From: an uncultured bacterium
Lineage (GTDB): Bacteria > Verrucomicrobiota > Kiritimatiellia > RFP12 > UBA1067
NCBI GenBank assembly: GCA_902800055.1
Contig: CADCCW010000008.1
Location: 1-64,000 of the forward strand
Length of the DNA: 64,000 nt
Direction of reading: 5' to 3'
Below, piece after piece: positions 3,183 through 48,551 of the stretch. The position numbers were made by a program, and so were the translations under genes. Each line of letters starts with the position of its first letter. Within the stretch, counting starts at the first letter, position 1. Under the pieces are notes generated by a model, which ran no database searches, was not told where the DNA came from, and worked only from the letters and a program-made list of their open reading frames with translations.

Positions 3183-5084
3183 CTACTGGCCTATGGAGAG
3201 GCGGAAGAAACGGGCGGAGGAGGCTTCGAGCTCGTTTGTCGAAACCGGATACCACGACGCGGACGAGAGAGTGTCGCAGCCGTAGAGCGTGTAGGTGCGT
3301 CCGGGGAGGCTCGGGCTCCATGAAATGCGCGGCACGCCTGCGGCAAAATCGATCGAGAGCACGATGTCGCGCGCCATTGGGTCGGCCGGGTCGAGGCCGA
3401 GAAGCCAGCTCGCCCAGAGCGAGCGCCCGTTCGCGCCGACGAGGCGGGCGAGCGGCTCGAAGCCGTACGTTCCGTTGAAATACTCCGCGGCGGAATGCGT
3501 CCCGTCGGCGGCGACAAGCTCGGCCAGCATGGTCGCGCCGTCGTCGGTCGCCGACGGAAAGTCGGAGGCGCGCGCGCCGCCGGAGATGCGGGTGTAGGCG
3601 TTGATGCAGAGAGCCCAGCCTTCGGCGTCGGCGGCGTACAGTCCGCAGTCGTAGGCGTCGTACCATCTGTTGGTTGCGTCGTTCTTCGACCAGCCCACGT
3701 AGCCGTTGCCGGGACGATAGGCGAATCCGCCGTAGACCGGATCTTCCGGAACCGGCGTCACGGTGGCGACGAGAATCGAGGCTGCGCTACCGGCCTGCCT
3801 GAACACGACGGCATAGGACGTGCCGGGCGCGAGCGGGATTTCGCGTTCAAGGGGGACGGTGGTGTAGCCGCCGCGCGCGAGCGTGCCGGACTGGCTCAGC
3901 GCGCACGCACCGCCTTCGAGCGGACTCTCCGACGGATACACGGTTCCGTATGTCCTTGTGCCGTAGTCGCAGGGCACTACCTCCTCCCACCGCGATGTTG
4001 CGTGGCGCACGACGTTGGTGTAGATGGAGATTTCATATTCATAGGGGTAGACCGCAGTCCATACGCCCACGGCGGCAAGGCTCTCACCGGTCGCGGCGGT
4101 GAAGACCACGGCCTGGAGGTCGCTGTCGAACTGCGGGAATGCTCTGCTGTATGAAACGGACGTGTCATACTGCGGACCCGCGATGGCGTAGCCGTGCACG
4201 GCGTCGTATGCCGGCCCGTCGTCGCCGGCCGGCAGATAGACGCGGCCGCCGCCTGTGCAGAAGATGGTGTCGCAGTAGGAAACGTAGCAGTAGCCATGGT
4301 CGCCGATGGCTGTACCCCAGCTGTTCTTTATGATCCATGCGCCGTCGGTCGGCGGCGGACTCCTGAACAGCGCCCTGGGAAGACGGTCATCCCAGCCGAC
4401 GACGGTAACGGCATGGTTCGGGGATGAATCGTACATATAGCAGTGGTATGTGTTGTTGGAGCTGGTATAGGCGCCGCTCCAGTACATGGAGACCGCCACC
4501 GCCCCGTATTCGGCTATGGCGCGCTTCAGCGCATCTCGGCTCTCCTCGGTCCCGTCGAGGGCGGGAGTGAAGACGATGTTCTGCACATGCAGTTCGCTCG
4601 GCAGCGCCGGGCTGTTGGTGGCATCCCACGCCGCAAACGTGCCGACGTACGGATCTTTCGCCTCGTCCACCGGGCCGCTCCAGCGCAGAAGGTAGCCGGC
4701 CGGGCTGTCAGAATAGCCGCCGTGGCCGTTGTAGCCGATCATCGCGCAGAGCTTGGCGAGGTTCTTTTCGGAAAAGTCGCGCTCTCCCCTGCCAGACTTG
4801 AGAAGCTGAGTCTCAATCGTCGCGAGCGCCGCGAACGCCCAGCAGTTCCCAAGATCGAACTGGTTCTTGACGGACGTCATCCAGCCGTTGCTGGCGGAAT
4901 TCCAGTACGCCGGCAGCGGCTCCGGGGCGGAGCGAAGACGCGGCGCGGCGCGCAAGGACGTGAGCTCGCGCACGCGGATCATCTTTCCCGGGGCACTGGG
5001 CAGCAGGCCGGGCGTGAACGGCGGCGGGTCGTCGGCGAATGCCGCAAGCGCGGCAGAGGCAAGAATGACGAGACACTTCCGCAT
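3183..5084 (-). CDS. Secreted papain-family (C1) cysteine protease
   Basis: A 633-residue exported protein. Signal peptide at residues 1-17 (MRKCLVILASAALAAFA). The C1 peptidase catalytic set is complete: Q75 and C81 in NQFDLGNCWAFAAL, H224 in SPNHAVTVVGWDD, N254 in WIIKNSWG. There is no clear inhibitory propeptide longer than about 45 residues before the mature fold. Residues about 300-480 resemble the lectin-like beta domain found after some bacterial C1 domains, and the last 50 residues form another beta-rich segment. It is the last gene of the hydF operon, 19 nt after the Crp-like regulator, and probably acts in the periplasm or outside the cell on proteins. Substrate unknown. Confidence 0.9.
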   Translation of the reverse strand: MRKCLVILASAALAAFADDPPPFTPGLLPSAPGKMIRVRELTSLRAAPRLRSAPEPLPAYWNSASNGWMTSVKNQFDLGNCWAFAALATIETQLLKSGRGERDFSEKNLAKLCAMIGYNGHGGYSDSPAGYLLRWSGPVDEAKDPYVGTFAAWDATNSPALPSELHVQNIVFTPALDGTEESRDALKRAIAEYGAVAVSMYWSGAYTSSNNTYHCYMYDSSPNHAVTVVGWDDRLPRALFRSPPPTDGAWIIKNSWGTAIGDHGYCYVSYCDTIFCTGGGRVYLPAGDDGPAYDAVHGYAIAGPQYDTSVSYSRAFPQFDSDLQAVVFTAATGESLAAVGVWTAVYPYEYEISIYTNVVRHATSRWEEVVPCDYGTRTYGTVYPSESPLEGGACALSQSGTLARGGYTTVPLEREIPLAPGTSYAVVFRQAGSAASILVATVTPVPEDPVYGGFAYRPGNGYVGWSKNDATNRWYDAYDCGLYAADAEGWALCINAYTRISGGARASDFPSATDDGATMLAELVAADGTHSAAEYFNGTYGFEPLARLVGANGRSLWASWLLGLDPADPMARDIVLSIDFAAGVPRISWSPSLPGRTYTLYGCDTLSSASWYPVSTNELEASSARFFRLSIGQ

Positions 5085-5103
5085 ACGCTTTACCGCCGCC
5101 GCG

Positions 5104-5814
5104 TCAGGTTGACTGGGCGCGCTTCAGCCTGAAGACGTTCTTGCGCCAGGCGATGAGCCCCTGGTCGCGCAAGTGCCCGAGCGCGCGGGAGAGCGACGGC
5201 CGCGTCACCCCTAGGTACTCCGCCATCCGCTCGCGGTCGAACGGCACCTCCACCTCGCCGGTGTGGCCGCTTTCGCTGTCCAGTTCGTCTAGGTACGCCT
5301 TGACCCGCGCCTCGATCGTCGGCGCGTCCATCACCATCAGCTTGCGCCAGGTGGAGAACAGCTCGCGCGAGACGATCCGCGAGGAGTTGGCGGTGAGGCG
5401 CGCGTACACGGGGTCGGACGAGGCGACGAGCCGCCGCGACTGCTCCATGTCGAACGTGACGACCGTGGTGTCGGCGGCGGCGACCACGGTGCCGGGCCAG
5501 CACTTAACCTCGGGCACGTGGAGGATCCACAGCCCCAGCACCTCGCCGGCGCCGATCTCGCGCACCAGGACGGGATGGTCGGAGTCCACCGCGCAGTAGA
5601 CGTGGAGGTGGCCGGAGGCGACGGCGACGAGCCGCGTGGCCTCGAGCCCGGCGTGGACCACGATCTCGCCCTTCTGGTAGGTGCGCTTGACGGCGTTGAG
5701 CCGGAAGAGCGCGTCCTCCACGCCCTCGGCGTCGATGCCGCGGAAGAGCTCAAGGCCCCCCGCCACCTCGGTCAGGCTCATGCGGTCCATGTCTGTCCCC
5801 TGCGATGTCTTCAT
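5104..5814 (-). CDS. Crp/Fnr-family transcriptional regulator
   Basis: A 236-residue regulator with an N-terminal cyclic-nucleotide-binding-type beta roll (about 20-130) and a C-terminal winged helix (about 150-232; recognition region RERMAEYLGVTRPSLSRALGHLRDQGLI). Cysteines occur only around residues 74 and 104, so the N-terminal Fe-S cluster motif of Fnr is absent; the effector is unknown. The start at 5814 is preceded by AGGAAGGGG at good spacing. It lies 16 nt after yggS and 19 nt before the protease, inside an operon that begins with hydF, so redox or metabolic control of that operon is possible (inference). Confidence 0.9.
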   Translation of the reverse strand: MKTSQGTDMDRMSLTEVAGGLELFRGIDAEGVEDALFRLNAVKRTYQKGEIVVHAGLEATRLVAVASGHLHVYCAVDSDHPVLVREIGAGEVLGLWILHVPEVKCWPGTVVAAADTTVVTFDMEQSRRLVASSDPVYARLTANSSRIVSRELFSTWRKLMVMDAPTIEARVKAYLDELDSESGHTGEVEVPFDRERMAEYLGVTRPSLSRALGHLRDQGLIAWRKNVFRLKRAQST

Positions 5815-5830
5815 GCCACACCCCTTCCTC

Positions 5831-6616
5831 TTAGTCCAGTACCCGTGCCGTCGGCCCTTCGCCGGAATAGGAGTCGAGTCCGCCCAGGGCGCCGTCGCCG
5901 TCGTCGCCGGACGCGGACGCGCGCTTCGCCTTCGGGCGCTCGCCGAAGAGCACCGTGCCGAGACGCACCCAGGTGGCGCCCTCTTCCACCGCGACTTCGT
6001 AGTCGCCGCTCATCCCCATCGAGAGCCGTGGCAGGACGACTCCGAGCGCGTCCTGCATCTTGTCGCGCAGCTCCCGGAGCCGGCGGAAATGCGGCCGCGC
6101 GTCCTCGGGGTTCTCCGAGAACGGCGCCATGGTCATCAGTCCCTCGACGGTGATGCGCGGACAATGCGCGGCGATGTGCTCCAGCGCGCTGCGCACCTCC
6201 TCGGGCTTCATGCCGCTCTTGGAGCTTTCGCCGGACACGTTGACCTCGAGGAGCACGCGCGGCAGCGCGCCGATCTCGTCCGCGACGGCGTTGATGCGGT
6301 CGGCGAGCTTCGCCGAGTCGACTGAGTGGATGACGTCGAAGAGCTCCAGCGCCTTGCGCACCTTGTTGGACTGGAGGTGGCCGATGAGGTGCCAGCTCGG
6401 GCCGGACGCGCTCGCCGGCTTCTTCCACGCCGCCTCCTGCACCTTGTTCTCGCCGACGACGCCGAGCCCGGCGCGCCATGCCTCGTCGACCGTCTCCGCG
6501 CCGTGGGTCTTGGTGACGGCCACGATCTCCACCTCGGCCGGGTCGCGTCCCGCGCGCGCGCACGCCGCGGCGATTTTTCCCCGCACCTCGGCGAGTATCT
6601 CCTCAAGGTCTCTCAT
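5831..6616 (-). CDS. yggS: YggS/PLPBP-type pyridoxal-phosphate homeostasis protein
   Basis: A 261-residue member of the YggS/PROSC family, which binds PLP without catalysing a known reaction and buffers the PLP pool. The PLP lysine is K36 in VAVTKTHGAE; other family motifs are WHLIGHLQSNK, LLEVNVSGESSK, GLMTMAPF and the phosphate-binding LSMGMSGDYEVAVEEGATWVRLG (in part). The C-terminus has an extra tail of about 30 low-complexity Ser/Gly/Asp residues beyond the usual length. It starts 9 nt after the PHP gene. The divergent pdxK-like gene at 8664 acts on the same vitamer family. Confidence 0.93.
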   Translation of the reverse strand: MRDLEEILAEVRGKIAAACARAGRDPAEVEIVAVTKTHGAETVDEAWRAGLGVVGENKVQEAAWKKPASASGPSWHLIGHLQSNKVRKALELFDVIHSVDSAKLADRINAVADEIGALPRVLLEVNVSGESSKSGMKPEEVRSALEHIAAHCPRITVEGLMTMAPFSENPEDARPHFRRLRELRDKMQDALGVVLPRLSMGMSGDYEVAVEEGATWVRLGTVLFGERPKAKRASASGDDGDGALGGLDSYSGEGPTARVLD

Positions 6617-6625
6617 TGCACAACC

Positions 6626-7426
6626 TCATTTCGTTAAGTCCACGTAGTCCTCCGCCGCGGCGAAGCGGTCGAAGGCGCAGTCGAGCGCGTCGACGGAGTG
6701 GGCGTCGGAGCCGAGGACGAACCTGACGCCGCGGCGGCGCAGGAGCGCGCGGAACTCCGCCGAGGGATAGGCGTCGTCAAGCCAGCCACGCGAGATCGCG
6801 CCGGTGTTGACCTCGACAATCTTGCCGCTCGCGGCGATTGCGTCCGCCGTGCGCTCCAGCTCCTCGCGGTACCAGGACGCCGACTCGTCGAAGTACGGGT
6901 GCTTAAGGTTGAACTTGCGCACCAGATCGGGATGGCCGACGACATCGAAGTCGAACTGGAGCGACTCCCTGACGGCAGCGAAGTACGCCTGCACCAGCGC
7001 CTCGGCGCTGCCGCCGAAATGGTCGCGGATGTCGTCGGCGAGCTCGCGCGGCGACGCGTCCACCGCAACTGCCGCGCCGTCCGCCGCGCGCACGAAGTGG
7101 ACCGAACCGATGATGTAGTCCGGCGCAATCGCCGCGTAGGCGGCACGCGACGGTTCCGCTTCGCCGGGGAGATAGTCCGCCTCGACGCCGCAGAGAATGC
7201 GAAGGCGGGGGGCGAATCTCGCGGCAAGTTCACGCACCTCCGCCGCGTAGCGCGGCGCCTTCTCGGGCGTAAGCGTCCAGTCGAGGAAGCTGCCGGGCAG
7301 CATCGCGTGCGAGGAGAATCCCAGCACGGCAAAGCCCTTTTTGACTGCCGCAAGCGCCATCCGCTCGGTCGAGTCGCGGCCGTCGCACCAGTTGGAGTGG
7401 GTGTGGTAATTGGTCTTTGCGCTCAT
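6626..7426 (-). CDS. PHP-domain phosphatase, histidinol-phosphatase type
   Basis: A 266-residue protein of the PHP metallo-phosphoesterase superfamily. Metal-ligand motifs visible: NYHTHSNWCDG (H8, H10), GVEADYLPGE, IIGSVHFV, DVVGHPDLV, and GSDAHSVD near the C-terminus. Size and motif order fit HisJ/HisK-type histidinol-phosphatases, which release phosphate from L-histidinol phosphate. A hisC gene occurs at 28975, so a role in histidine synthesis is reasonable, though a broader sugar-phosphate activity cannot be excluded. The start codon overlaps the hydF stop in ATGA, so translation is probably coupled. Confidence 0.85.
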   Translation of the reverse strand: MSAKTNYHTHSNWCDGRDSTERMALAAVKKGFAVLGFSSHAMLPGSFLDWTLTPEKAPRYAAEVRELAARFAPRLRILCGVEADYLPGEAEPSRAAYAAIAPDYIIGSVHFVRAADGAAVAVDASPRELADDIRDHFGGSAEALVQAYFAAVRESLQFDFDVVGHPDLVRKFNLKHPYFDESASWYREELERTADAIAASGKIVEVNTGAISRGWLDDAYPSAEFRALLRRRGVRFVLGSDAHSVDALDCAFDRFAAAEDYVDLTK

Positions 7427-22129: not shown

Positions 22130-23791
22130 TTAAACGCCGAGCTTGGCAGACTCCCCGTCGACGAGGACGGCGAGGGCGGTGATGTCGTCGTACTGCTCCG
22201 CGCCGGACGTGAAGGCGTCCAGGTCCCGCTCCAGTCCGTCGACAAAGACGGACGGCGCATCCTTCGCGTGCGCAGACGCATACGCCAGCAGCCGCCCTTC
22301 GCCGTACTGCTCGTGGTCGGCCCGCTCCGCCTCGGTGACGCCGTCGGTGTAGGCCAGCAGCATCGTGCCGGGCGCGAACACCGCCTCCTGCTGCGCATAC
22401 GAGTATTCGTCCAGCACCCCGACGGCAATGTTCTTTTTCGCCGCGAGGAACTCCGCGCCCTTCCCCGGCGGCACGACGACGAGCGGCGTGTGCCCGGCGT
22501 TGCAGTATTCCATCCGCCCGGACGAGAGGTCGATGCGGCCAACGAAAAGCGTCACGAACATGCACGCGCCGTTGTCCTTGCAGAGAAGCGCGTTGATGCG
22601 GGAGACGATCTCGTCCGGCGGCAGCCCCATGTCCGTCGCCATGCGGAAGCCGGCCCCCGCCAGAAAGGCGAACAGCGCCGCCGGAATGCCCTTGCCCGAC
22701 GCGTCGCCAACCGCGAAATAGAGCACCCCGTCCTTCTCCCGGAAGTCGTAGAGGTCCCCGCCTACCTCCCGGGCCGGACGGAGAACGGTCCCGATGCACT
22801 GCGGCGCCCTGCGCTTCAGCACGCTCGACTGGATCGTCCGCGCGATGCCCAGCTCGCTGCTGAGCCGCTCGCTGGTGGCCGTCGCGCGCTGGAGCCGCGT
22901 CGAGAACGACCACGAGACGAAGAAGATGAGCCCAAGGCCGACGACCGAGAACAGCGCGATCCGCCGCACCAGGCTGCGCGCGCCCTGCAGGATGTTGGAC
23001 AGCGGACAGACGAGCTCCACCGTCCAGCCGTTGCCGGCCTGGCCGGAAATCACCACCGTGTCGCTTGCCTTCGCGGCGTCAGCGGGGGCGGGGACGAGCG
23101 GCCTGCCGTGCTGGGAGGAAAGGACGGCGTAGGAGTTGGGATACGGCTTGATCGCCGCCACATGGTGCGTCAGGTCGTCGAGCGATATGTCCGCCGTGAG
23201 CACCGCGAAGACCTTCCCGTCGCGGTTTGCCAGCGGGACGGAATACGTACACATCATCACCTCCGCGCCGCCTTTGTCGAAGTACGGCTCGCACCACGAC
23301 GGCTTCCCCGACTCCTTCGGGATGCGGTACCAGTCCATCTCGTGGTACCTGAACGTCTCGCCGCCCTGCTGGATGCGCTTGATACCGCCCTTCCCGTCCT
23401 TGCAGGAGAAGGCTGAGTAGTAGTAGCCCTTCGACGGGAAGAAGTTCGGCTCGAAGGCGACCGTGCTGCCGACGATGAACGGGTTGTTCTGCACGAGCTC
23501 GCCAGTGATCCTGAACATGTAGTCAGGGTCCGAGATCCGCTCCTCGACGATCCAGGCAGAGTTCTCGACCGCGCTTTCGACCGACGCCATCTGGCGGTCG
23601 ATGCGCCCGACCGTCGCCTTCACGACGTTCTCGACGGTGCTGCGCGCCTCGTTCTCCATCATCTTCGACGTGCTGAACGCGACGAAGACCGCGATGGCGA
23701 GGAAGAGCGTCGCCGTGACGGCGACGACCGCAAAGTTGATTCTCTTGACTGAGCGCGTCTTCAACCGCGCCGGATTCGCTTTCGTAAACAT
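22130..23791 (-). CDS. Membrane Cache-domain PP2C/SpoIIE serine phosphatase
   Basis: 553 residues. TM1 about 21-43, a periplasmic Cache-type sensor about 44-280 (NPFIVGSTVAFEP, YYYSAF, WYRIPKESGKPSWCEPYFD, MCTYSVPL), TM2 about 283-305, then a SpoIIE/RsbU-type phosphatase domain (EVGGDLYDF, FAVGDASGKGIPAALF, YCNAGHTPLVVV, LLAYTDGVTEAER, QYDDITALAV) with the metal-binding aspartates present. It should dephosphorylate a Ser/Thr-phosphorylated partner, typically an anti-sigma antagonist, when an extracellular small molecule binds. No STAS or RsbW partner is in the window. It ends a leftward run with the sensory hydrogenase genes, 85 nt after the last one. Confidence 0.9.
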   Translation of the reverse strand: MFTKANPARLKTRSVKRINFAVVAVTATLFLAIAVFVAFSTSKMMENEARSTVENVVKATVGRIDRQMASVESAVENSAWIVEERISDPDYMFRITGELVQNNPFIVGSTVAFEPNFFPSKGYYYSAFSCKDGKGGIKRIQQGGETFRYHEMDWYRIPKESGKPSWCEPYFDKGGAEVMMCTYSVPLANRDGKVFAVLTADISLDDLTHHVAAIKPYPNSYAVLSSQHGRPLVPAPADAAKASDTVVISGQAGNGWTVELVCPLSNILQGARSLVRRIALFSVVGLGLIFFVSWSFSTRLQRATATSERLSSELGIARTIQSSVLKRRAPQCIGTVLRPAREVGGDLYDFREKDGVLYFAVGDASGKGIPAALFAFLAGAGFRMATDMGLPPDEIVSRINALLCKDNGACMFVTLFVGRIDLSSGRMEYCNAGHTPLVVVPPGKGAEFLAAKKNIAVGVLDEYSYAQQEAVFAPGTMLLAYTDGVTEAERADHEQYGEGRLLAYASAHAKDAPSVFVDGLERDLDAFTSGAEQYDDITALAVLVDGESAKLGV

Positions 23792-23876
23792 TGTCTACAC
23801 CTCGTCTTCCATGTTGACTATACCTTGTCCGCCGCGTCTTCATCGCCCGCAGCTGAGTCGCGCGCCGTCCGCGCGC

Positions 23877-25271
23877 TCAGGTGAGCGAGCACGGGCCGTT
23901 CTGGCAGCCGCCGGGGCAGGCCATCACCTCCAGGAAGTTCACGGGGAGCTTCCCGGCGGCGTAGAGCTTGACCATGGCGCAGGTCTTGCGGTCGATGCCG
24001 TTTATCTGCTTCGCGTCCAGCTTGAAGCCGGGTATCTTCGCCGTCGCCTCGGCGAGGACTGCGTCCGTCACGCCGCAACTCCTCGCGTAGTTGCGGGCGG
24101 TCGGGTTCGCGGGGCGCTCCACCGGCCATGGCTCGCAGGCGATGACGTCGATCTTGCGTCCGGCGAGGATGGCGCCGAGCTCCTCGAAGGAGAGGACGTA
24201 GTCCACGTCCTTGCGCCTCGCCTCGCTGCGCTTCGCGACGCAGGGGCCGATGAACACCGTCTTGGCGGACGGGTCCTTCTTCTTCGCGATTTCGTGCGCG
24301 TATACCATGGGACTGGGAGTCAGCGAAACGTGGTTCACGAGGTCGGGCATGTGCTTTCCGACCAGGTTCACCCAGGCCGGGCAGCACGACGTGGTCATGA
24401 ACGTCTTCTGGTCCTTCTCCATGCGCTCGATGAATTCGGCGGTCTCGTGCTCGGTTGTCTTCTCCGCGCCGAGCGCGACCTCCATGACGTCGGCGAAACC
24501 GGCCTTCGCGCAGGCCGAGAGGAGTTGTTCGATCTTTCCGGGGAACTGCTTCTCCGCCGCGGGCGCGATCATCGCGACGAGCTTTTCGCCGCGCTTCATC
24601 GCCGCAAGCACGTCCACGAGCTGCGAACGCTCCATGACCGCCGCGAACGGACACGCGGCGAAGCATTTGCCGCAGAAGATGCACTTCTCGAAGTCGATCT
24701 CGGCTACGCCATGGTCGTTCTTGCGGATTGCCCCGACCGGGCAGGCGTCCTCGCAGGGCACGGAAGTCTTGACGATCGCGTGGTATGGGCAGGCGGTGAT
24801 GCACTTGCCGCACTTGATGCAGAGGGACTGGTCGATCACCGACTGCCCGCCGACGATGGAGATCGCCTTCTTCGGGCAGTTGTACACGCACGGGCGCGCG
24901 ATGCAGCCGCGGCAGTTTGGCGTGGAGACGACCTTCGCGTCCGGGCAGCCGCTGCACGCTGGCCCGCACACGCTGAGCGGCGTTTTCGGCCTGGTGTCGT
25001 TCGCCCCTCCGCCCCACGCCTTCTCGGCGAAATAGGCGGCGAGGGACTTGGCCTCGTCCGTCTCGTCCTCCACGGACACTCCCAGAAGCGCCATCAGCCG
25101 GTACTTGAAGATCGCGCGGTCGTGGTAGACGCAGCAGCCCGACGCGACCGAGTTCTTCGGCCTGAGCTTGATCGGGATCTGGTCGAGCTCCTTCTCGAGC
25201 GTGCCGTCGTCGAACGCGCGCACGATGCGGATCATCAGCTCGCGGCGGATGAAAGTGGATCCGTTGAGCAT
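23877..25271 (-). CDS. [FeFe] hydrogenase-like protein, group B type
   Basis: 464 residues. An N-terminal segment with SGCCVYHDRAI, a cysteine-rich ferredoxin region (about 102-208) able to hold several [4Fe-4S] clusters, and an H-cluster domain with L1 TSCCPAW (294-300), L2 IGPCVAKRSE (341-350) and L3 EVMACPGGC (448-456). All H-cluster cysteines and the proton-relay cysteine are present, so catalysis is possible. The domain layout fits the poorly characterised group B of anaerobes. It starts 1 nt after a thioredoxin-like ferredoxin and belongs to the sensory hydrogenase cluster. It depends on HydF/HydE/HydG for its cofactor. Confidence 0.9.
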   Translation of the reverse strand: MLNGSTFIRRELMIRIVRAFDDGTLEKELDQIPIKLRPKNSVASGCCVYHDRAIFKYRLMALLGVSVEDETDEAKSLAAYFAEKAWGGGANDTRPKTPLSVCGPACSGCPDAKVVSTPNCRGCIARPCVYNCPKKAISIVGGQSVIDQSLCIKCGKCITACPYHAIVKTSVPCEDACPVGAIRKNDHGVAEIDFEKCIFCGKCFAACPFAAVMERSQLVDVLAAMKRGEKLVAMIAPAAEKQFPGKIEQLLSACAKAGFADVMEVALGAEKTTEHETAEFIERMEKDQKTFMTTSCCPAWVNLVGKHMPDLVNHVSLTPSPMVYAHEIAKKKDPSAKTVFIGPCVAKRSEARRKDVDYVLSFEELGAILAGRKIDVIACEPWPVERPANPTARNYARSCGVTDAVLAEATAKIPGFKLDAKQINGIDRKTCAMVKLYAAGKLPVNFLEVMACPGGCQNGPCSLT

Positions 25272-25272
25272 T

Positions 25273-25536
25273 TTACTCGGCCTCCGTCAGCAGCTCGCCG
25301 ATGCGCGCGGTCAGCTTCTCCGGCGTGGCCTGCGCCATGATCTCGGTGTCGTTTATGCGCACGTACGGGGCTCCGCCGAGATTCTCCTTCTCGCAGAGCT
25401 CGAGGCAGGTCCTCGCCTCGACCTCGACCCTGCCGCGCCATTCGGCGGGAAGCTGGTCTTCGAGGTCCATCATGTTCGCCGCGCCCAGCAGGTAGCACGC
25501 CGTGCCGCAGCATATCTCGACTTTGACTTTTTCCAT
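25273..25536 (-). CDS. Thioredoxin-like [2Fe-2S] ferredoxin (87 aa)
   Basis: A NuoE-C-terminus-like ferredoxin with four ligand cysteines in the family pattern: C9-x4-C14 and C44-x3-C48. Probably passes electrons between the flanking hydrogenase-type proteins. It sits between the SpoIIE phosphatase (16 nt) and the group B hydrogenase (1 nt). Confidence 0.85.
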   Translation of the reverse strand: MEKVKVEICCGTACYLLGAANMMDLEDQLPAEWRGRVEVEARTCLELCEKENLGGAPYVRINDTEIMAQATPEKLTARIGELLTEAE

Positions 25537-25553
25537 GTCCGTCTCCTTTTCTG

Positions 25554-26771
25554 TCAGTAGTAGTCTACGGTGACCTTCTTGCGGTAGTTCTTCTCCAGCG
25601 CCGCGGCGATGCGCTTGACGACGCTTCGCCTGAGCTCCAGGTCCTGCGGGACGTTCGGATCCTGGTGGGACTCGTTCACCTTCGTGCCGATCACGAACTC
25701 GATGCGGTCGTGGCGCATCATGCGCTCGAGGATCGCGCGCGCGGCGGCGGGCTCGCGCTCAGGCGGACGCATCTGCTCGAGCGCCGAAAGGACGCGCCCG
25801 AGCGTGAGGATGCCCTCGGTTGCGATGCCGACGCCCTCCATCGTGCCGATCGGCGGCAGGCCGCCGGACGTCCGCATGTCCGAGAGCTTCACCTTCACCT
25901 TGACGCCGAGCTCGCGCTCCATGATGTTCGCGGTCGTGCCGCCGCAGATGACGACGTGGTCGAAGCCGAGCGTCGCCTTGCGCGCGTAGTCCGCGTCGTG
26001 CTCCTTGTAGAATGGCGGCCCGGTGAGGACGCGCATGACGCGCGGATGGCGGAGGTAGCAGACGACGCAGCTGATGTCGTCCTTGCAGCCGCCGGGCGCG
26101 AGGTAGAGCGCCTCGTGCGCGATCGCGGCGCTCAGGTCACGCGCCGAGATGTCCGGATCGGCGGCGATCCTCTCCTGGGCGAACTTGAGTACGCCCGAGC
26201 GGCGCCAGCCGAACTTCATGTCCTTCCTCACGCCGAGCCCGGACTGCGTGACGCCGTCCGAGCACAAGATGATGCGGTCGCCGGAACGGAAGTCGGCCTC
26301 GCACTTCCGCACCTCGCGGTCCGGCCAGTGCGACGAGACGATCTGCTCGTCCCTGAGCGGAGCGATCTCGTCCGTACCCCTGAGGTGGATGTAGCCGGGG
26401 TTGCCCATCTCGCTGATGCGCGCCTTTCCGCCGAGGCGGAAGTCGAAGAGCGAGAAGGTGGCGTAGCCGATCTTGCGGACCTCGCAGACGGGGAGCGAGT
26501 CCATGATGATTTCGACCGCCTCGAGCATGGGGACGTTCGATTCGAGGAACTTGATCGCCATCGAGGTCGTCATCGTCGCGAGCACGTTCGCCTTGACGCC
26601 GCTGCCGAGTCCGTCGGAGAGCGCCACGAGGTGCCGGTTCTCCTTCTCGACGGTCATGAACCTGACGTCGTCGCCGCACGCGGCCTGGCCGGTCTTCGTG
26701 TACTGGGCGGCCTCCATCTCGATGAAGAGGTCGCTCGCGGCGCTGTAGCCGCGCTGAAGCGCGTCAGCCAT
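25554..26771 (-). CDS. SpoIIE-type PP2C phosphatase with extra C-terminal domain
   Basis: 405 residues without signal or membrane segment. Residues 1-235 are a PP2C/SpoIIE domain: CGDDVRFM, LSDGLGSGVKAN, EMGNPGYIHL, LCSDGVTQSG, CKDDISCVVCYL. The remaining 170 residues, starting VMRVLTGPPFYKEHDAD, contain VVICGGTTANIMERELG and a run around SDMRTSGGLPPIGTMEGVGI; I do not recognise that domain. It overlaps the HsfB-like gene by 8 nt, so the phosphatase and the PAS hydrogenase are made together. In related sensory-hydrogenase clusters a PP2C protein is a recurring neighbour; output target unknown. Confidence 0.88.
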   Translation of the reverse strand: MADALQRGYSAASDLFIEMEAAQYTKTGQAACGDDVRFMTVEKENRHLVALSDGLGSGVKANVLATMTTSMAIKFLESNVPMLEAVEIIMDSLPVCEVRKIGYATFSLFDFRLGGKARISEMGNPGYIHLRGTDEIAPLRDEQIVSSHWPDREVRKCEADFRSGDRIILCSDGVTQSGLGVRKDMKFGWRRSGVLKFAQERIAADPDISARDLSAAIAHEALYLAPGGCKDDISCVVCYLRHPRVMRVLTGPPFYKEHDADYARKATLGFDHVVICGGTTANIMERELGVKVKVKLSDMRTSGGLPPIGTMEGVGIATEGILTLGRVLSALEQMRPPEREPAAARAILERMMRHDRIEFVIGTKVNESHQDPNVPQDLELRRSVVKRIAAALEKNYRKKVTVDYY

Positions 26772-28518
26772 TCAGGTACTCCTCGCTTCCGCCTTCGCGG
26801 AGCCGCTTGCCGACGGTCTGGGATTCATACGCGCCCGCGATCTCGTTGAGCATGATCTCCGTCTCGGCGATGTGCTCGCCGAAGAGCCGCGCCACCTGCT
26901 GGACGGTGTAGACGTTCTTCCGGATGACGTCGCGCGCCTTCGCGGCGATCTCCTCGCGCCGGCCCTCGTTCTTCGTGACGTCCTGCACTACCGCGCCCGC
27001 GAACTTGCCGACGCTGATCGGGAAGACGCTGATCGTGACGATGCGTCCGCTCCACTGCTGGCGGTACTTGACGATCTCGCTGCCGTGCTCCACCGCACCC
27101 GTGAAGAGCTCCGCGAACTCGGGCATGAAGCCGTCCACGCCGAGCCCGTCGAGGTTGCCGAGCGCGTCGTACTCGCCGAGCGCGCCCGCCATTTCCGCGA
27201 AGAGCCGGTTGCACTCGACGATGAGCCCCTTCGCGTCGACGATGACGACGCCGGCCGGTATGTACTTGATGAGCGCGTTGGAAGTGCGCTGGAAGTTCTT
27301 CTTGAGGTAGATGTGGCACATCGCCTCCTCGGCCTTGCCGGCGAGGAGCGCCTTCGCGAACTCGCGGCACGAGTTGTAGCCGCACGCGCCGCAGTTGATC
27401 TCGTCGGCCTTGGCCGTCTTCCCGACGCGCGCGAGCGCGCCCGCGATCGCCGCCTCGTCCGGCTCGTCCTCCACGACCGCCGCGGCCGGATAGGCCGAGG
27501 TTCCGCAGTGCGCGAAGCAGCGCGAGGAGGAGGCGCGAATCGGCGCGGTTGCGTCGGTCGCGAAGAGCGTCGCGAGCCCCGAGGCGCCGCGCGGCATGGC
27601 GGGGCCGTTGACGCAGCCGCCAGGGCACGCCAGCACCTCGACGAACAGCTTGCGCTGGAAGTTCTCCGGATGCAGCCCGAACTCCGCGGGATCGAAGTCC
27701 TCGAGCATCCTGCGGAAGTCCTCGAGCCCCGAGACGGAGACGTACCTGACGTCCGTCCTGCCGTCGCGCAGCGTGTCGTTCATCCCGCCTTCGACGGAGT
27801 AGAAGCGTCCTTCCTCGGCCGGCCCAAGCGCGAGCTCGGCCTCCTTGCCGAAGGTGATGCCGCGCTCCGCGAGGAACTGCTCGAGCGCGGGGAAGATGAC
27901 GGCGAGCGCGAGCTCGTCCGGATGCGAGTCGGACTCGTTCTTCTTCGCCGCGCACGGCCCGAAGAAGACGACCTTCGCGTCCTGGCCGTACTTCTCCCTG
28001 ATGAGCCGGCAGTGCGCGCGCACGGGCGAGGGTAGGGGGGAGATGAACTTGGCGTAGGCAGGCAGGTACTTGCGCACCATGTCGACCGCGGCGGGACAGG
28101 CGGACGAGATGACGAGCGGGGAGTCCGTCTCGTCGAGGAGCTTCGAGACGTGCGCGCTCACCGCCTCAGCGCCGTGCGCGGTCTCGCTCGCGCCCGCGAA
28201 GCCGGCGGCCTTCAGCGCCGCGGCGATCTGCCCGATCGTCACGCCCTTGAAGTAGCCGGCGAAGCTCGGCGCGACGGACGCGTACAGCTTCGCGCCGGAC
28301 GCGACGAGCTCCTTGAGGCGCGCGAGGTCGCTCCTGATCTTCTTCGCGTGCGCGGGGCACACCTTCACGCACTCGCCGCAGGCGACGCACGCCTCCGGGA
28401 TCACGCTCGCCTTGCCGTTGACGATCCTGATCGCCTTCACCGGACAGTGCCGCACGCACTTGTAGCAGTCCTGGCACTCGTTCTCAGTCGTGTAAACCGG
28501 GCTTGTGACCGTCATCAT
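26764..28518 (-). CDS. Sensory [FeFe] hydrogenase with PAS domain (HsfB/HydS-like, group C)
   Basis: 584 residues. Two [4Fe-4S] motifs (CQDCYKCVRHCP and CVACGECVKVCP), an H-cluster domain with L1 SSACPA (138-143), L2 FGPCAAKKNE (187-195) and L3 EVLACPGGC (about 314), another iron-sulfur motif NCGACGYNSC (about 395-405), and a C-terminal PAS domain (about 425-525; VVIVDAKGLIVECNRLFAE). In L1 the first cysteine of TSCCP, the proton-relay residue, is alanine, as in sensory HydS proteins with low turnover. It probably reports H2 or redox state through PAS to the overlapping phosphatase (inference). Confidence 0.92.
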   Translation of the reverse strand: MMTVTSPVYTTENECQDCYKCVRHCPVKAIRIVNGKASVIPEACVACGECVKVCPAHAKKIRSDLARLKELVASGAKLYASVAPSFAGYFKGVTIGQIAAALKAAGFAGASETAHGAEAVSAHVSKLLDETDSPLVISSACPAAVDMVRKYLPAYAKFISPLPSPVRAHCRLIREKYGQDAKVVFFGPCAAKKNESDSHPDELALAVIFPALEQFLAERGITFGKEAELALGPAEEGRFYSVEGGMNDTLRDGRTDVRYVSVSGLEDFRRMLEDFDPAEFGLHPENFQRKLFVEVLACPGGCVNGPAMPRGASGLATLFATDATAPIRASSSRCFAHCGTSAYPAAAVVEDEPDEAAIAGALARVGKTAKADEINCGACGYNSCREFAKALLAGKAEEAMCHIYLKKNFQRTSNALIKYIPAGVVIVDAKGLIVECNRLFAEMAGALGEYDALGNLDGLGVDGFMPEFAELFTGAVEHGSEIVKYRQQWSGRIVTISVFPISVGKFAGAVVQDVTKNEGRREEIAAKARDVIRKNVYTVQQVARLFGEHIAETEIMLNEIAGAYESQTVGKRLREGGSEEYLNG

Positions 28519-39732: not shown

Positions 39733-40497
39733 TCAACTTTGCGGCAGGCGAAAGAAGGAAAGGTACTCGACGTTGCCCATCTCGCGGCCGCGGATCGGCG
39801 ACTCGGCGAGGCCGGCGAGCGACAGCCCCAGCTCCTCCTCGGCGAAGCGCACGATGCCGTCGCGCGCCGCGAGGCGCAGCGCCTCGTCCCGCACCAGCCC
39901 ACCCGGCGCCTGCCCTTTACCCACCTCGAACTGGGGCTTGATGAGCGCGACGATGGCGCCGCCAGGCGCAAGCACCGAGACGATCGGCGGCAGGATGAGC
40001 CTGAGCGAAATGAACGAGACGTCGGTCACCGCCAGCTCCGGCGTCTCGGGCAGGTCCTCGCGCGTCATGTAGCGCGCATTGAAGTTCTCCTTCACCCACA
40101 CGCGCGGGTCGCTGCGAAGCGAGTAGGCGAGCTGGTTGGTGCCCACGTCGACCGCCATCACCATCTTCGCCCCGTGCTGCAAGAGGCAGTCGGTGAAGCC
40201 TCCGGTCGAGGAGCCGACGTCGAGGCAGATCTTGCCAGCGGCGTCCAGCCCCGTTCCCCATTCCCCGTTCCCCGTTCCCCATAACTCAAACGCTCCCTCC
40301 AGCTTCTCGCCGCCGCGCGAGACGAAGCGCGGGGGCGCCTCGACCTCGATTGCCGCCGCGTCGTCCACTTGCCGCGACGCCTTGGTCTCCACCTGCCCGT
40401 TGACGCGCACCTGTCCCGCCATGACAAGCGCCTGCGCCAGCGTGCGGGAACCGGCAAGCCCCCGCTCCGCTAGCGCAACGTCGAGCCGACGCCTCAC
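39733..40497 (-). CDS. TlyA-family rRNA 2'-O-methyltransferase/hemolysin-like
   Basis: 254 residues. S4 RNA-binding domain (about 2-62; RLDVALAERGLAGSRTLAQAL, given in part), FVSRGGEKLEGAF linker, then an FtsJ-like methyltransferase with SAM motif CLDVGSSTGGFTDCLLQ and DVSFISLRLILP. TlyA enzymes 2'-O-methylate 16S and 23S rRNA; the hemolysin name is historical. Residues 73-83 (GTGNGEWGTG region) are an insertion encoded by four heptamers of (G/A)TTCCCC (plus strand) between the two domains. The start overlaps the PEGA stop in ATGA. Confidence 0.9.
   Translation of the reverse strand: MRRRLDVALAERGLAGSRTLAQALVMAGQVRVNGQVETKASRQVDDAAAIEVEAPPRFVSRGGEKLEGAFELWGTGNGEWGTGLDAAGKICLDVGSSTGGFTDCLLQHGAKMVMAVDVGTNQLAYSLRSDPRVWVKENFNARYMTREDLPETPELAVTDVSFISLRLILPPIVSVLAPGGAIVALIKPQFEVGKGQAPGGLVRDEALRLAARDGIVRFAEEELGLSLAGLAESPIRGREMGNVEYLSFFRLPQS
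40253..40280. repeat. Four heptamer repeats inside the tlyA-like gene
   Basis: GTTCCCC, ATTCCCC, GTTCCCC, GTTCCCC, 28 bp without gaps. Gain or loss of a single unit would shift the reading frame. Confidence 0.8.
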
Positions 40498-44058: not shown

Positions 44059-44538
44059 ATGAGCGAACAGACGGAAAAGATGACGCCGGAGCTGAAGGCG
44101 TTCATTGAAGAATGGAAAGGAAAGCCGGGGAACCTGATCATGGTCCTGCACAAGGTCCAGCAGACCTACGGCTACATCCCGCGCGAGATCGCGATCGAGA
44201 TATCGTCCCTCCTGGACGTGCCGCTCGCGAAGATCTACGGGGTGGTCACGTTCTACAACTTCTTCAAGTTGCAGAAGGCCGGCAAGTACATCATCCAGGT
44301 CTGCCTCGGCACCGCGTGCTACCTCAGGGGCGGCGACGACCTGATGAAGGAGTTCGAGCGCCAGCTCGGCGTCGGCGTGAACGCCACCACCCCCGACGGC
44401 CTCTTCTCGGTGGAGGCGGTCCGCTGCCTCGGCTGCTGCGGCCTGGCGCCGGTGGTGGTCGTCAACGGCGAGGTCCACGGCAAGCTGGCGACGAAGGACG
44501 TCGCCGGCATCATCGAAAAGTACCGCAAGCTCGGATAA
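44059..44538 (+). CDS. hydC: NAD-linked [FeFe] hydrogenase subunit HydC (NuoE-like)
   Basis: 159 residues. An N-terminal helical bundle (LIMVLHKVQQTYGYIPREIA) and a thioredoxin-like domain with the [2Fe-2S] ligands C82-x4-C87 and C123-x3-C127 (CLGTACYLRGG and RCLGCC). It is the NuoE-type small subunit of the trimeric HydABC enzyme, which in bifurcating form couples NADH and reduced ferredoxin oxidation to H2 formation. First gene of the operon. Confidence 0.95.
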   Translation: MSEQTEKMTPELKAFIEEWKGKPGNLIMVLHKVQQTYGYIPREIAIEISSLLDVPLAKIYGVVTFYNFFKLQKAGKYIIQVCLGTACYLRGGDDLMKEFERQLGVGVNATTPDGLFSVEAVRCLGCCGLAPVVVVNGEVHGKLATKDVAGIIEKYRKLG

Positions 44539-44552
44539 CAGGAGGAAGCAAA

Positions 44553-44948
44553 ATGGCTAAGCTCACTTTGGACGACCTGCGCCGGATGCGCGGGGAGAAG
44601 CAGAAGGCGATGGAGATGCGCGACAGCTCCAACAAGGACGTGCAGGTCATCGTCGGCATGGGCACCTGCGGCATCGCCGCGGGCGCGAAGGACACCTATG
44701 CCGCGCTTATCGACACGCTCTCGGCGAAGGGAATGACCAACGTGCTCGTGCGCCAGACCGGCTGCATGGGCCTCTGCCACTCGGAGCCGACGGTCGAGGT
44801 CGTCGTCCCGGGCATGCCGACCGTGATCTACGGCCACGTGGACGCGGCGACGGCGAAGGACATCGTCGAGAAGCACATCGTCGGCCACGGGCTCATCGAG
44901 GGCAAGATCCTCGACAAGCCGTCGATCGACATCGTGAAGAACGCTTAA
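44553..44948 (+). CDS. Small (2Fe-2S) ferredoxin-domain protein of the hyd operon
   Basis: 131 residues, thioredoxin-like ferredoxin fold. IVGMGTCGIAAGAKDT holds one cysteine where NuoE-type proteins have two, and TGCMGLCHSEP has the usual pair; so only three ligand cysteines are obvious. This variant motif recurs in the small protein that often lies between hydC and hydB, so it is a feature of the subfamily rather than a defect here. AGGAGG precedes the ATG at 44553, 14 nt after hydC. Confidence 0.88.
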   Translation: MAKLTLDDLRRMRGEKQKAMEMRDSSNKDVQVIVGMGTCGIAAGAKDTYAALIDTLSAKGMTNVLVRQTGCMGLCHSEPTVEVVVPGMPTVIYGHVDAATAKDIVEKHIVGHGLIEGKILDKPSIDIVKNA

Positions 44949-44960
44949 GGAGTGACGGCA

Positions 44961-46748
44961 ATGGCATATCAATCATACGTCCTGGTCTGCGGCGGCACCG
45001 CGTGCTGCTCCAGCGGCGGCGACAAGGTTGTCGCGGAGTTCAAGCGCATCCTCGCGGAGCAGAAGCTCGACGAGACGGTCCAGGTGGTCACCACCGGCTG
45101 CCTCGGCTTCTGCGAGCAGGGCCCGATCGTCAAGATCCTGCCGCAGGGAACATTCTACGTGCAGGTCAAGCCCGAGGACGTCAAGGAAATCGTCGCGGAG
45201 CACCTCGTCAAGGGCCGCGTCGTCCAGCGCCTCTGCTACGACCCCGAGCAGGCCAAGAAGCTCGTCGCCGAGGCGAACATCCCCTTCTACCAGAAGCAGT
45301 ACCGCATCGTGCTCCGCAACTGCGGCGTGATCGACCCCGAGAAGATCGAGGACTACATCGCGCGCGACGGCTACAAGGCGATCGAGAAGGTGCTCTTCGA
45401 GATGACGCCCGAGCAGGTGGTGGAGGAGATCCTCAAGTCCGGCCTGCGCGGCCGCGGCGGCGCCGGCTTCCCGACCGGCATGAAGTGGAAGTTCGCGATG
45501 CAGCAGCCCAAGGGCCAGAAGTACATGGTCTGCAACGCCGACGAGGGCGACCCCGGCGCGTACATGGACCGCTCCACCCTTGAGGGCGACCCCCACTCCG
45601 TCCTCGAGGCGATGACGATCGCCGGCTACGCGATCGGCGCCTCCAAGGGTTTCATCTACATCCGCGCCGAGTACCCGCTCGCGATCCGCCGCCTCGAGGT
45701 GGCGATCGAGCAGGCCCACGACCTCGGCCTCCTCGGCAAGGACATCCTCGGCTCGGGCTTCGACTTCGACATCGAGCTCCGCTTCGGCGCCGGCGCGTTC
45801 GTCTGCGGCGAGGAGACGGCGCTCCTCCAGTCCATCGAGGGCAACCGCGGCATGCCGCGTCCCCGTCCGCCGTTCCCGGCGGTCAAGGGTCTCTGGGGCC
45901 GGCCGACGGTCATCAACAACGTCGAGACGCTCGCGAACATCCCCGTCATCATCAACAAGGGCGCGGACTGGTTCTCGAAGATCGGCACCGCGACCACCAA
46001 GGGCACCAAGGTCTTCGCGCTCACCGGCAAGGTGAACAACTCGGGCCTCATCGAGGTCCCGATGGGGACGACCCTCCGCGAGATCATCTTCGACATCGGC
46101 GGCGGCATCCGCGGCGGCCACCAGTTCAAGGCGGCGCAGACTGGCGGACCTTCCGGCGGCATCATCCCGCCGCAGTTCCTCGACACGCCGATCGACTACG
46201 AGTCGCTCGCCAAGATCGGCTCGATCATGGGCTCTGGCGGCCTCATCGTGATGGACGAGACGGACTGCGTCGTCGACATCGCGAAGTTCTACCTCGACTT
46301 CACGGTCGACGAGAGCTGCGGCAAGTGCGCGCCCTGCCGCATCGGCGGGCGCAAGCTCCTCAACTACCTCAAGAAGATCACCGCCGGCCGCGGCACCGAG
46401 CAGGACATCGCCGACATGCAGGCGATCTGCGACGCGATGAACAAGGCCTCGCTCTGCGGCCTCGGCCAGACCGCCTCCAACCCGGTCAGGTCGACCCTGA
46501 GGTACTTCATGGACGAGTACATGGAGCACATCCGCGACAAGAAGTGCCGCGCCGGCAAGTGCTCGAGGCTCATCCAGTACAAGATCGACGCGGCGAAGTG
46601 CAGGGGCTGCACGATGTGCGCGAAGAAGTGCCCAGCGGGGGCGATCTCCGGCGAGCTCAAGCAGCCGCACGTCATCGACCAGTCCAAGTGCGTCAAGTGC
46701 GGCGCCTGCGAGGCGACATGCAAGTTCGGCGCGATCAGCCACGGCTAA
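44961..46748 (+). CDS. hydB: NAD-linked [FeFe] hydrogenase subunit HydB (NuoF-like)
   Basis: 595 residues from ATG 44961 (AAGGAG 8 nt upstream). N-terminal thioredoxin-like ferredoxin domain (CGGTACCSSGG; TGCLGFCEQGP), then the FMN/NADH core with RGRGGAGFPTGMKW, CNADEGDPGAYMDR and EETALLQSIEGNRG, an SLBB domain, the [4Fe-4S] motif ESCGKCAPCRIGG, and a C-terminal pair of ferredoxin motifs CRGCTMCAKKCP and CVKCGACEATCK. It binds NAD(H) via FMN and splits electrons toward HydA and ferredoxin in the bifurcating enzyme. Confidence 0.95.
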   Translation: MAYQSYVLVCGGTACCSSGGDKVVAEFKRILAEQKLDETVQVVTTGCLGFCEQGPIVKILPQGTFYVQVKPEDVKEIVAEHLVKGRVVQRLCYDPEQAKKLVAEANIPFYQKQYRIVLRNCGVIDPEKIEDYIARDGYKAIEKVLFEMTPEQVVEEILKSGLRGRGGAGFPTGMKWKFAMQQPKGQKYMVCNADEGDPGAYMDRSTLEGDPHSVLEAMTIAGYAIGASKGFIYIRAEYPLAIRRLEVAIEQAHDLGLLGKDILGSGFDFDIELRFGAGAFVCGEETALLQSIEGNRGMPRPRPPFPAVKGLWGRPTVINNVETLANIPVIINKGADWFSKIGTATTKGTKVFALTGKVNNSGLIEVPMGTTLREIIFDIGGGIRGGHQFKAAQTGGPSGGIIPPQFLDTPIDYESLAKIGSIMGSGGLIVMDETDCVVDIAKFYLDFTVDESCGKCAPCRIGGRKLLNYLKKITAGRGTEQDIADMQAICDAMNKASLCGLGQTASNPVRSTLRYFMDEYMEHIRDKKCRAGKCSRLIQYKIDAAKCRGCTMCAKKCPAGAISGELKQPHVIDQSKCVKCGACEATCKFGAISHG

Positions 46749-46767: not shown

Positions 46768-48551
46768 ATGGAAACTGAAATGATTTCTCTCGAGGTCAAC
46801 GGCGTCGCGGTGAGCGTCCCGAAAGGCTCTAACCTCCTCGCCGCGGCCAGGGCCGCGAATGTCAAGATCCCGACCCTCTGCTACCACCCCGACCTCAAAC
46901 CCGGCGCCAGCTGCGGCATCTGCGTCGTCAGGCAGCTCGTCCCCAGCCGCAACCCGGCCGACAACGGCAAGTTCGTGCCCAGCCCCAAGCTGCTCCGCGC
47001 CTGCTGCACCGAGGCGACGCCGGGGATGAAGATCATCACCCACGACCCGGACATCGTGCAGGTCCGCAAGACGGTGCTCGAGCTCATCCTCGCCAACCAC
47101 CCGAACGACTGCCTGCAGTGCCCGCGCTCCGGCAGCTGCGAGCTCCAGGCGATCGCCGCCGACTTCGGCATTCGCGAGAACCCCTTCCCGAAGGAAGTGG
47201 TCCACCACGACGTCGACAAGTCGACCCCGTCGATCGTGCTCAACCCCGACAAGTGCATCAAGTGCGGTCGCTGCGCCGAAGTCTGCCAGGAGATGCAGAA
47301 CGTCTGGGCGCTCGAGTTCATCGGCCGCGGCGAGAAGACGGTGATGGCCCCGGCCGCCGGCGTCAAGCTCGCCGACTCGCCGTGCATCAAGTGCGGCCAG
47401 TGCTCCGCGCACTGCCCCGTCGGCGCGATCTACGAGAACGACGAGACCGCCAAGGTCTGGGCCGCGCTGCAGGATCCCGAAAAGGTCTGCCTGGTGCAGA
47501 TAGCCCCGGCCGTCCGCGTCGCCGTCGGCGAGGCCTTCGGCATGAAGCCCGGCTCGCTCACCACCGGCAAGATCTACGCCGCGCTCCGCCGCCTCGGCTT
47601 CGACAAGGTGTTCGACACCAACTTCTCGGCCGACGTCACGATCATGGAGGAGGGCACCGAGTTCATCAAGCGCTTCACCGAGGGCGGCGAGCTGCCGCTC
47701 CTCACCAGCTGCTGCCCGGCCTGGACCGACTGGATGGAGAAGTACGCGCCCGACTTCACCGGGAACTTCTCGACCGCGAAGTCGCCCCAGCAGATGCTCT
47801 CGGCGCTCGCCAAGAGCTACTGGCCGGAGAAGAACGGCGTCGACCCCAAGAAGGTGCACGTCACCTCGATCATGCCCTGCACGGCGAAGAAGTACGAGAT
47901 CAGCCGCGACGAGTACATGAGCGCCTCGGGCCAGCAGGACACCGACGTCGTCCTCACGACCCGCGAGCTCGCGCGCATGATCAAGGCCGCCGGCATCGAC
48001 TTCGAGTCGCTCCCGGAGGAGCCGGCCGACAAGCTGCTCGGCACCTACACCGGCGCAGGCACGATCTTCGGCGTCACCGGCGGCGTCATGGAGGCCGCGC
48101 TCCGCACGGCCTACTGCCTGATCACCGGCGACGCCCAGCCGCCCAGCATCGACTTCCAGGCGGTGCGCGGCATGGACGGCGTCAAGACCGCGACGATCGA
48201 CATCAAGGGCACGAAGGTGAACATCGCCGTCGCGCACCAGATGTCCGCGAGGACCGCAAGAACGGCGTCAAGCCGCGCTTCGACTTCATCGAGGTCATGG
48301 CATGCCGCGGCGGCTGCATCGGCGGCGGCGGCCAGCCGTGCCTGGCGACGGACGCGGTCCGCGCCCAGCGCACCGCCGGCCTCTACACCGACGACGAGAA
48401 GTCAACGCTCCGCATGTCGCACCTCAACCCCGAGGTCCAGTCCCTCTACAAGGACTACCTCGACGGCAAGACCGGCGCGCAGGGCGGCAAGAAGGCACAT
48501 CACCTCCTCCACACCGCATACAAGCAGGAAGAGGTCTACAACTTCTCGTAA
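46768..48551 (+). pseudogene. hydA: NAD-linked [FeFe] hydrogenase catalytic subunit HydA, frameshifted
   Basis: The frame opens at ATG 46768 and reads a plant-type [2Fe-2S] domain (CYHPDLKPGASCGIC), a His-Cys [4Fe-4S] site, two ferredoxin motifs (CIKCGRCAEVCQ, CIKCGQCSAHCP), L1 TSCCPAW (about 313-319) and L2 IMPCTAKKYE (about 368). At codon 492 (48241) it leaves the true frame; the rest (EDRKNGVKPRFDFIEVMACR, GGCIGGGGQPC) continues in the -1 frame to the stop at 48551. The last H-cluster cysteines are therefore out of frame. Together the two parts give a full-length HydA of about 594 residues. Sequence error, a genuine disabling mutation or programmed frameshifting are all possible; no slippery heptamer is visible. 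Confidence 0.85.

Follow-up and report, generated by a model that had tools for sequence, protein, structure and literature searches.

The frameshift that interrupts hydA, which encodes the catalytic subunit of a putative NADH-linked [FeFe] hydrogenase, is very probably an artefact of assembly, in which case the enzyme would not have been lost. The gene lies in what we call the window, the whole stretch of 64,000 nucleotides analyzed here, which comprises bases 1–64000 of the 105,245-base contig C8 of the MAG G000 (2.29 Mb in 61 contigs); close relatives of G000 include gut Kiritimatiellae MAGs. As a first-pass annotation had noticed, the frame that opens at 46768 runs clean to about codon 492, and the coding frame then moves by −1 and carries on to a stop. 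The last homologous base of the first frame is 48243, beyond which that frame extends, out of frame, to 48798. The motifs TSCCPAW and MPCTAKK are found in the 46768 frame, and EVMACRGGC is found in the −1 frame, which holds DFIEVMACRGGCIGGGGQP and a normal C-terminus. We take these three to be the H-cluster motifs L1, L2, and L3 of the HydA in the window. No single frame of the assembled sequence contains all three, and the annotation was right that hydA as written could not supply L3 in frame.

Aligned with the congener G012 (96.1% nucleotide identity over 3311 nt), the window lacks exactly 28 nt, or nine codons and one base, after CACCAGATG; the missing stretch corresponds to hydA nt 1472–1499. 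The identical gap appears against all 18 aligned loci, which include some genomes twice under two locus ids, and the junction is without an N run. When the contigs of related genomes were scanned, the stretch was present and L3 lay in one frame in 79 of the 80 related loci retained, and the 80th (L090) gave no match to the L3 motif used in the scan; judged from this pattern in its relatives, the frameshift in the window is more than chance. The bin was searched for a second intact copy of hydA and none was found. The frameshift had originally been attributed to a 7-nt deletion between short direct TCC repeats. That mechanism was rejected: the net loss relative to G012 is 28 nt in one gap, the two ends of which share no bases and carry no TCC direct repeat. 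A difference of 7 nt does exist at the junction between the window and its sister genome G058, the stretch being absent from both. The hydA of G058 has a loss of its own, of 35 nt.

Table 1 Features of the hyd operon in the window.
Feature	Position	Strand	Observation
hydC-like, thioredoxin-like [2Fe-2S] subunit	44059–44538	+	Open; PF01257 (3e-49)
131-aa ORF between hydC and hydB	44553–44948	+	No NCBIfam match at 1e-8
hydB, FMN/NADH-binding subunit with C-terminal ferredoxin domains	44952–46748	+	Open; PF01512, PF10531, PF10589, PF00037
hydA, first part (ferredoxin domains, L1, L2)	46768–48243	+	Frame intact; profile matches
hydA, junction	48243|48244	+	28 nt of relatives absent; frame shifts by −1
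hydA, last part (−1 frame)	48244–48551	+	L3 motif at 48291–48317; small-subunit-like C-terminus; stop

The other genes of the operon are intact, as had been claimed: hydC, the 131-aa ORF, and hydB are all open upstream of the broken hydA (Table 1). Pfam and NCBIfam both describe a single hydrogenase in two pieces, with positions 1–474 of the 571-position NCBIfam model FeFe_hydrog_A6 matching the first hydA piece and positions 488–570 matching the second. The first 494 residues of HydA score 470.2 bits with TIGR02512, above the cut-off of 405.95. With NF040763 (A6; cut-off of 765), the two pieces of the gene, split as it is here, score 646.7 and 100.2 bits, each under the cut-off, and the full-length ortholog from G012 scores 766.5, just above it. 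The four Pfam matches of HydB all fall within 44952–46745 and are presumably the same domains as the InterPro entries by which BfuB has been described. In the relevant passage of PMC9304861, BfuB combines FMN-binding 51K, SLBB, NADH_4Fe-4S, and 4Fe-4S ferredoxin domains and marks the bifurcating BfuABC core. The operon resembles that of a trimeric [FeFe] hydrogenase of the HydABC/BfuABC type (FeFe_hydrog_A6) in its gene order of hydC, hydB, and hydA, in a HydB with the BfuB domain types of that passage (PMC9304861), and in a HydA with Fer2, NADH-G, Fer4, H-cluster, and small-subunit-like domains; it departs from that type in the split of the assembled HydA by the 28-nt loss and in the 131-aa ORF between hydC and hydB. 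As far as sequence can tell, hydA is a real gene under selection, and its product is the catalytic subunit of an NADH-linked [FeFe] hydrogenase of the HydABC type, which may bifurcate electrons between NAD and ferredoxin.

Other genes related to hydrogenases were also observed. The window contains a gene for a B1-type monomeric [FeFe] hydrogenase, above the cut-off (23877–25271, minus strand), and a gene for a sensor-like protein with an H-cluster domain and PAS (26764–28518, minus strand), and genes beside these two have weak matches to SiaA/SpoIIE phosphatases (22130–28518, minus strand); the region 22130–28518 on this strand is a possible hydrogen-sensing cluster. On contig C37 of G000 (about 3364–7073), a second HydB-like gene (58% identity) is followed by a long open frame resembling the N-terminal part of HydA, and these genes may perhaps encode another NADH-linked complex.

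The sister genome G058, which matches the window at 97% of nucleotides over the operon, allowed us to ask how the separated end of hydA has evolved. In the L3 frame after the junction, the window and G058 differ by 9 synonymous and 0 nonsynonymous changes over 97 codons, a pattern with a neutral chance of about 2e-6; over codons 1–491, they differ by 19 synonymous and 3 nonsynonymous changes. Nor is the C-terminal part simply without variation among congeners, because the window and G012 differ after the junction by 11.5 synonymous and 13.5 nonsynonymous changes. By this measure, the C-terminal part of hydA is under strong selection, and since this holds for the lineages of both the window and G058, both losses would have to be recent. 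That two such recent losses arose independently at one left edge is less probable than that they share a cause in assembly.

Each of 61 genomes of the genus was searched for hydA. Matches at an E-value of 1e-60 were found in 44, of which the 37 whose match reached 70% identity or more were retained, those with only more distant paralogs being left out. In 23 of these 37, the gene had an open frame that starts no later than codon 5 and reaches codon 600. In another 6 it was uninterrupted but partial; in four of these (G003, G020, G031, and G024) hydA begins at the first bases of its contig, and the other two are G062 and G071. In the other eight, hydA was interrupted. Five of the eight have gapless losses (G000, 28 nt; G058, 35 nt; G033, 19 nt; G027, 138 nt; and G068, 17 nt), G065 and G019 have N runs, and G013 has a break recorded at the level of the survey. 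For comparison, splits within a contig affect dnaK in 3 of the 51 genomes with a match (G058, G002, and G013) and the EF-G gene in at least 3 of 61 (G027, G034, and G013). The more frequent interruption of hydA speaks for something particular to this gene, with the qualification that the comparison is rough, sequence sharing between species varying by gene.

Closer inspection of the losses revealed that the left edge of the 35-nt loss in G058 is identical to that of the 28-nt loss in the window. In addition, hydB of G058 lacks 31 nt and its dnaK (locus L199), an essential gene, lacks 90 and 67 nt relative to G012. The dnaK of G002 (locus L200) lacks 110 nt, and the EF-G gene of G027 is in three pieces, so that losses of the same type are found in essential genes of related MAGs; dnaK of G000 itself is intact. 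The dnaK losses in G058 and G002 probably represent assembly damage in an essential gene, and for G058, a faulty assembly is more likely than a cell in which dnaK is broken and one operon is interrupted twice. The 138-nt loss in hydA of G027 is in frame and ends at nt 1497, inside the stretch that is missing from the window. N runs are present in both hydA and hydB of G065, in hydB of G061, and in the hyd locus of G019.

The sequence surrounding the junction is shared among species to an uneven degree. The 31-mers that immediately precede the junction are common to as many as 8 of the 29 other genomes compared, as again are those about 40 nt and more to its right, and the 31-mers that span the variable codons between these two shared blocks are common to 1 of the 29. 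The left block reaches about 20 nt into the missing stretch, making the k-mer valley narrower than the whole loss, and k-mer sharing over the 60 nt that follow the junction is no higher than the top 18% for hydA; both points weigh against the explanation by assembly given below. The contig of the congener G018 starts at hydA nt 1492, within the missing nt 1472–1499. Four assemblies (G000, G058, G027, and G018) therefore show a loss edge or end in the interval of nt 1472–1506, which fits a break of the assembly graph at species-variable codons between shared blocks. We infer that the graph broke in this region and that a later joining or gap-closing step may have fused two contig ends, dropping 28 nt; hydA in the organism would then be intact and would give a normal H-cluster protein with L1, L2, and L3.

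The contig numbering of G000 offers circumstantial evidence on such a step. Of its 42 known contigs, 22 are longer than one numbered earlier, and among the 34 from C9 onward, 17 make up a decreasing series (at random, a mean of 9 and a maximum of 16 in 10,000), which suggests that sorted contigs were lengthened or joined after assembly. A contig-length argument for taking the 57,002 bases on the right-hand side of the junction as the original C8 was dropped, as almost any split fits. Assembly errors are reported to underlie frameshift pseudogenes often (PMC11017572), and intergenomic assembly errors may be triggered by interspecies repeats (PMC8021871). The hydA frameshift is like these cases in being one clean frame break, in an otherwise selected gene of a MAG, in a stretch shared among congeners; it is unlike them in that the passages in PMC11017572 and PMC8021871 describe neither this genus nor this gene, and in that the joining of contig ends is in our case a proposed event.

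It is improbable that a real and very recent 28-nt deletion destroyed hydA and cost the organism its NADH-linked hydrogenase with hydC and hydB still intact. Such a deletion would agree with the open frames of hydB and hydC, with the lack of an N run at the junction, and with the solitary nature of the break: in the parts of G000 compared, about 87 kb with G012 and 54 kb with G058, no other clean frame-breaking loss of at least 8 nt was found, and the remaining gaps, as read from the listing, lie between genes, are compensated, or fall in variable stretches. Because of this result and the intact dnaK, G000 is not generally error-ridden, and it is on account of the absence of other clean breaks that we keep a small probability for a real deletion. 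However, the loss in the sister genome differs but has its left edge at the same base, and dnaK of that genome has losses too; the contig of G018 starts in the same stretch; and the codons downstream are still under selection. These three observations favor an assembly error, which the annotation itself had raised as an alternative, over the biological loss of the enzyme that the first-pass annotation had implied. A chimeric contig with a switch of species at the junction was also considered, because identity to G012, 98% earlier in hydA, is down to 85% over the final 150 nt (a drop that comes about 160 nt downstream of the junction); it was ruled out as the cause, since G058 and the window are 97% identical before the junction and after it.

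The shared left edge in G000 and G058, the losses of G027 and G033 in nearby parts of hydA, and the excess of interruptions in hydA over dnaK and EF-G could also be read as a deletion hotspot between L2 and L3, or as an ancestral 28-nt loss shared by G000 and G058 that grew to 35 nt in the latter. Both are highly doubtful, given the 9 synonymous and 0 nonsynonymous changes after the junction between two supposedly dead genes, the same kind of loss in dnaK, the split EF-G gene in G027, and the N runs in the hyd loci of G065 and G019. It is equally hard to credit the corollary of a hotspot, namely that short deletions have repeatedly, and very recently, removed or switched off the NADH-linked hydrogenase in gut Kiritimatiellae species. 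Programmed ribosomal frameshifting or bypassing, by which a full-length HydA would be made from the sequence as assembled, would explain why the downstream frame has been kept and remains under selection, but it would leave out the nine codons that each of the 79 motif-bearing relatives has, the window and G058 would require different shifts, and 23 of the 37 congeners have a single open frame; we regard this explanation as extremely improbable. Were the loss real, the window would come from a fermenting gut bacterium without NADH-linked hydrogen production, which bears on the flow of hydrogen in the gut. If, as we favor, it is an artefact of assembly, it serves as a warning that, where a genus holds many near-identical species, conserved genes (dnaK, EF-G, and hydA) with short gapless losses can be taken for pseudogenes; a cheap safeguard is to compare sister MAGs and to look at essential genes.

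Two further features of the window were observed. Over 23501–64000, gene order relative to G012 is broken every few kb, in blocks of 78–99% identity, and 6 of the 7 block boundaries inspected lie between genes; either real rearrangement or chimeric contigs could account for these breaks. Short low-complexity tandem words, examples of which are AACCTTTCAACCCTTA, CCCCGTT, and GTTGAAAG, are found at 2327–2362 and 40249–40280 of the window, in locus L200 downstream of dnaK, and in L145; they occur in several congeners, and several are apparently intergenic.
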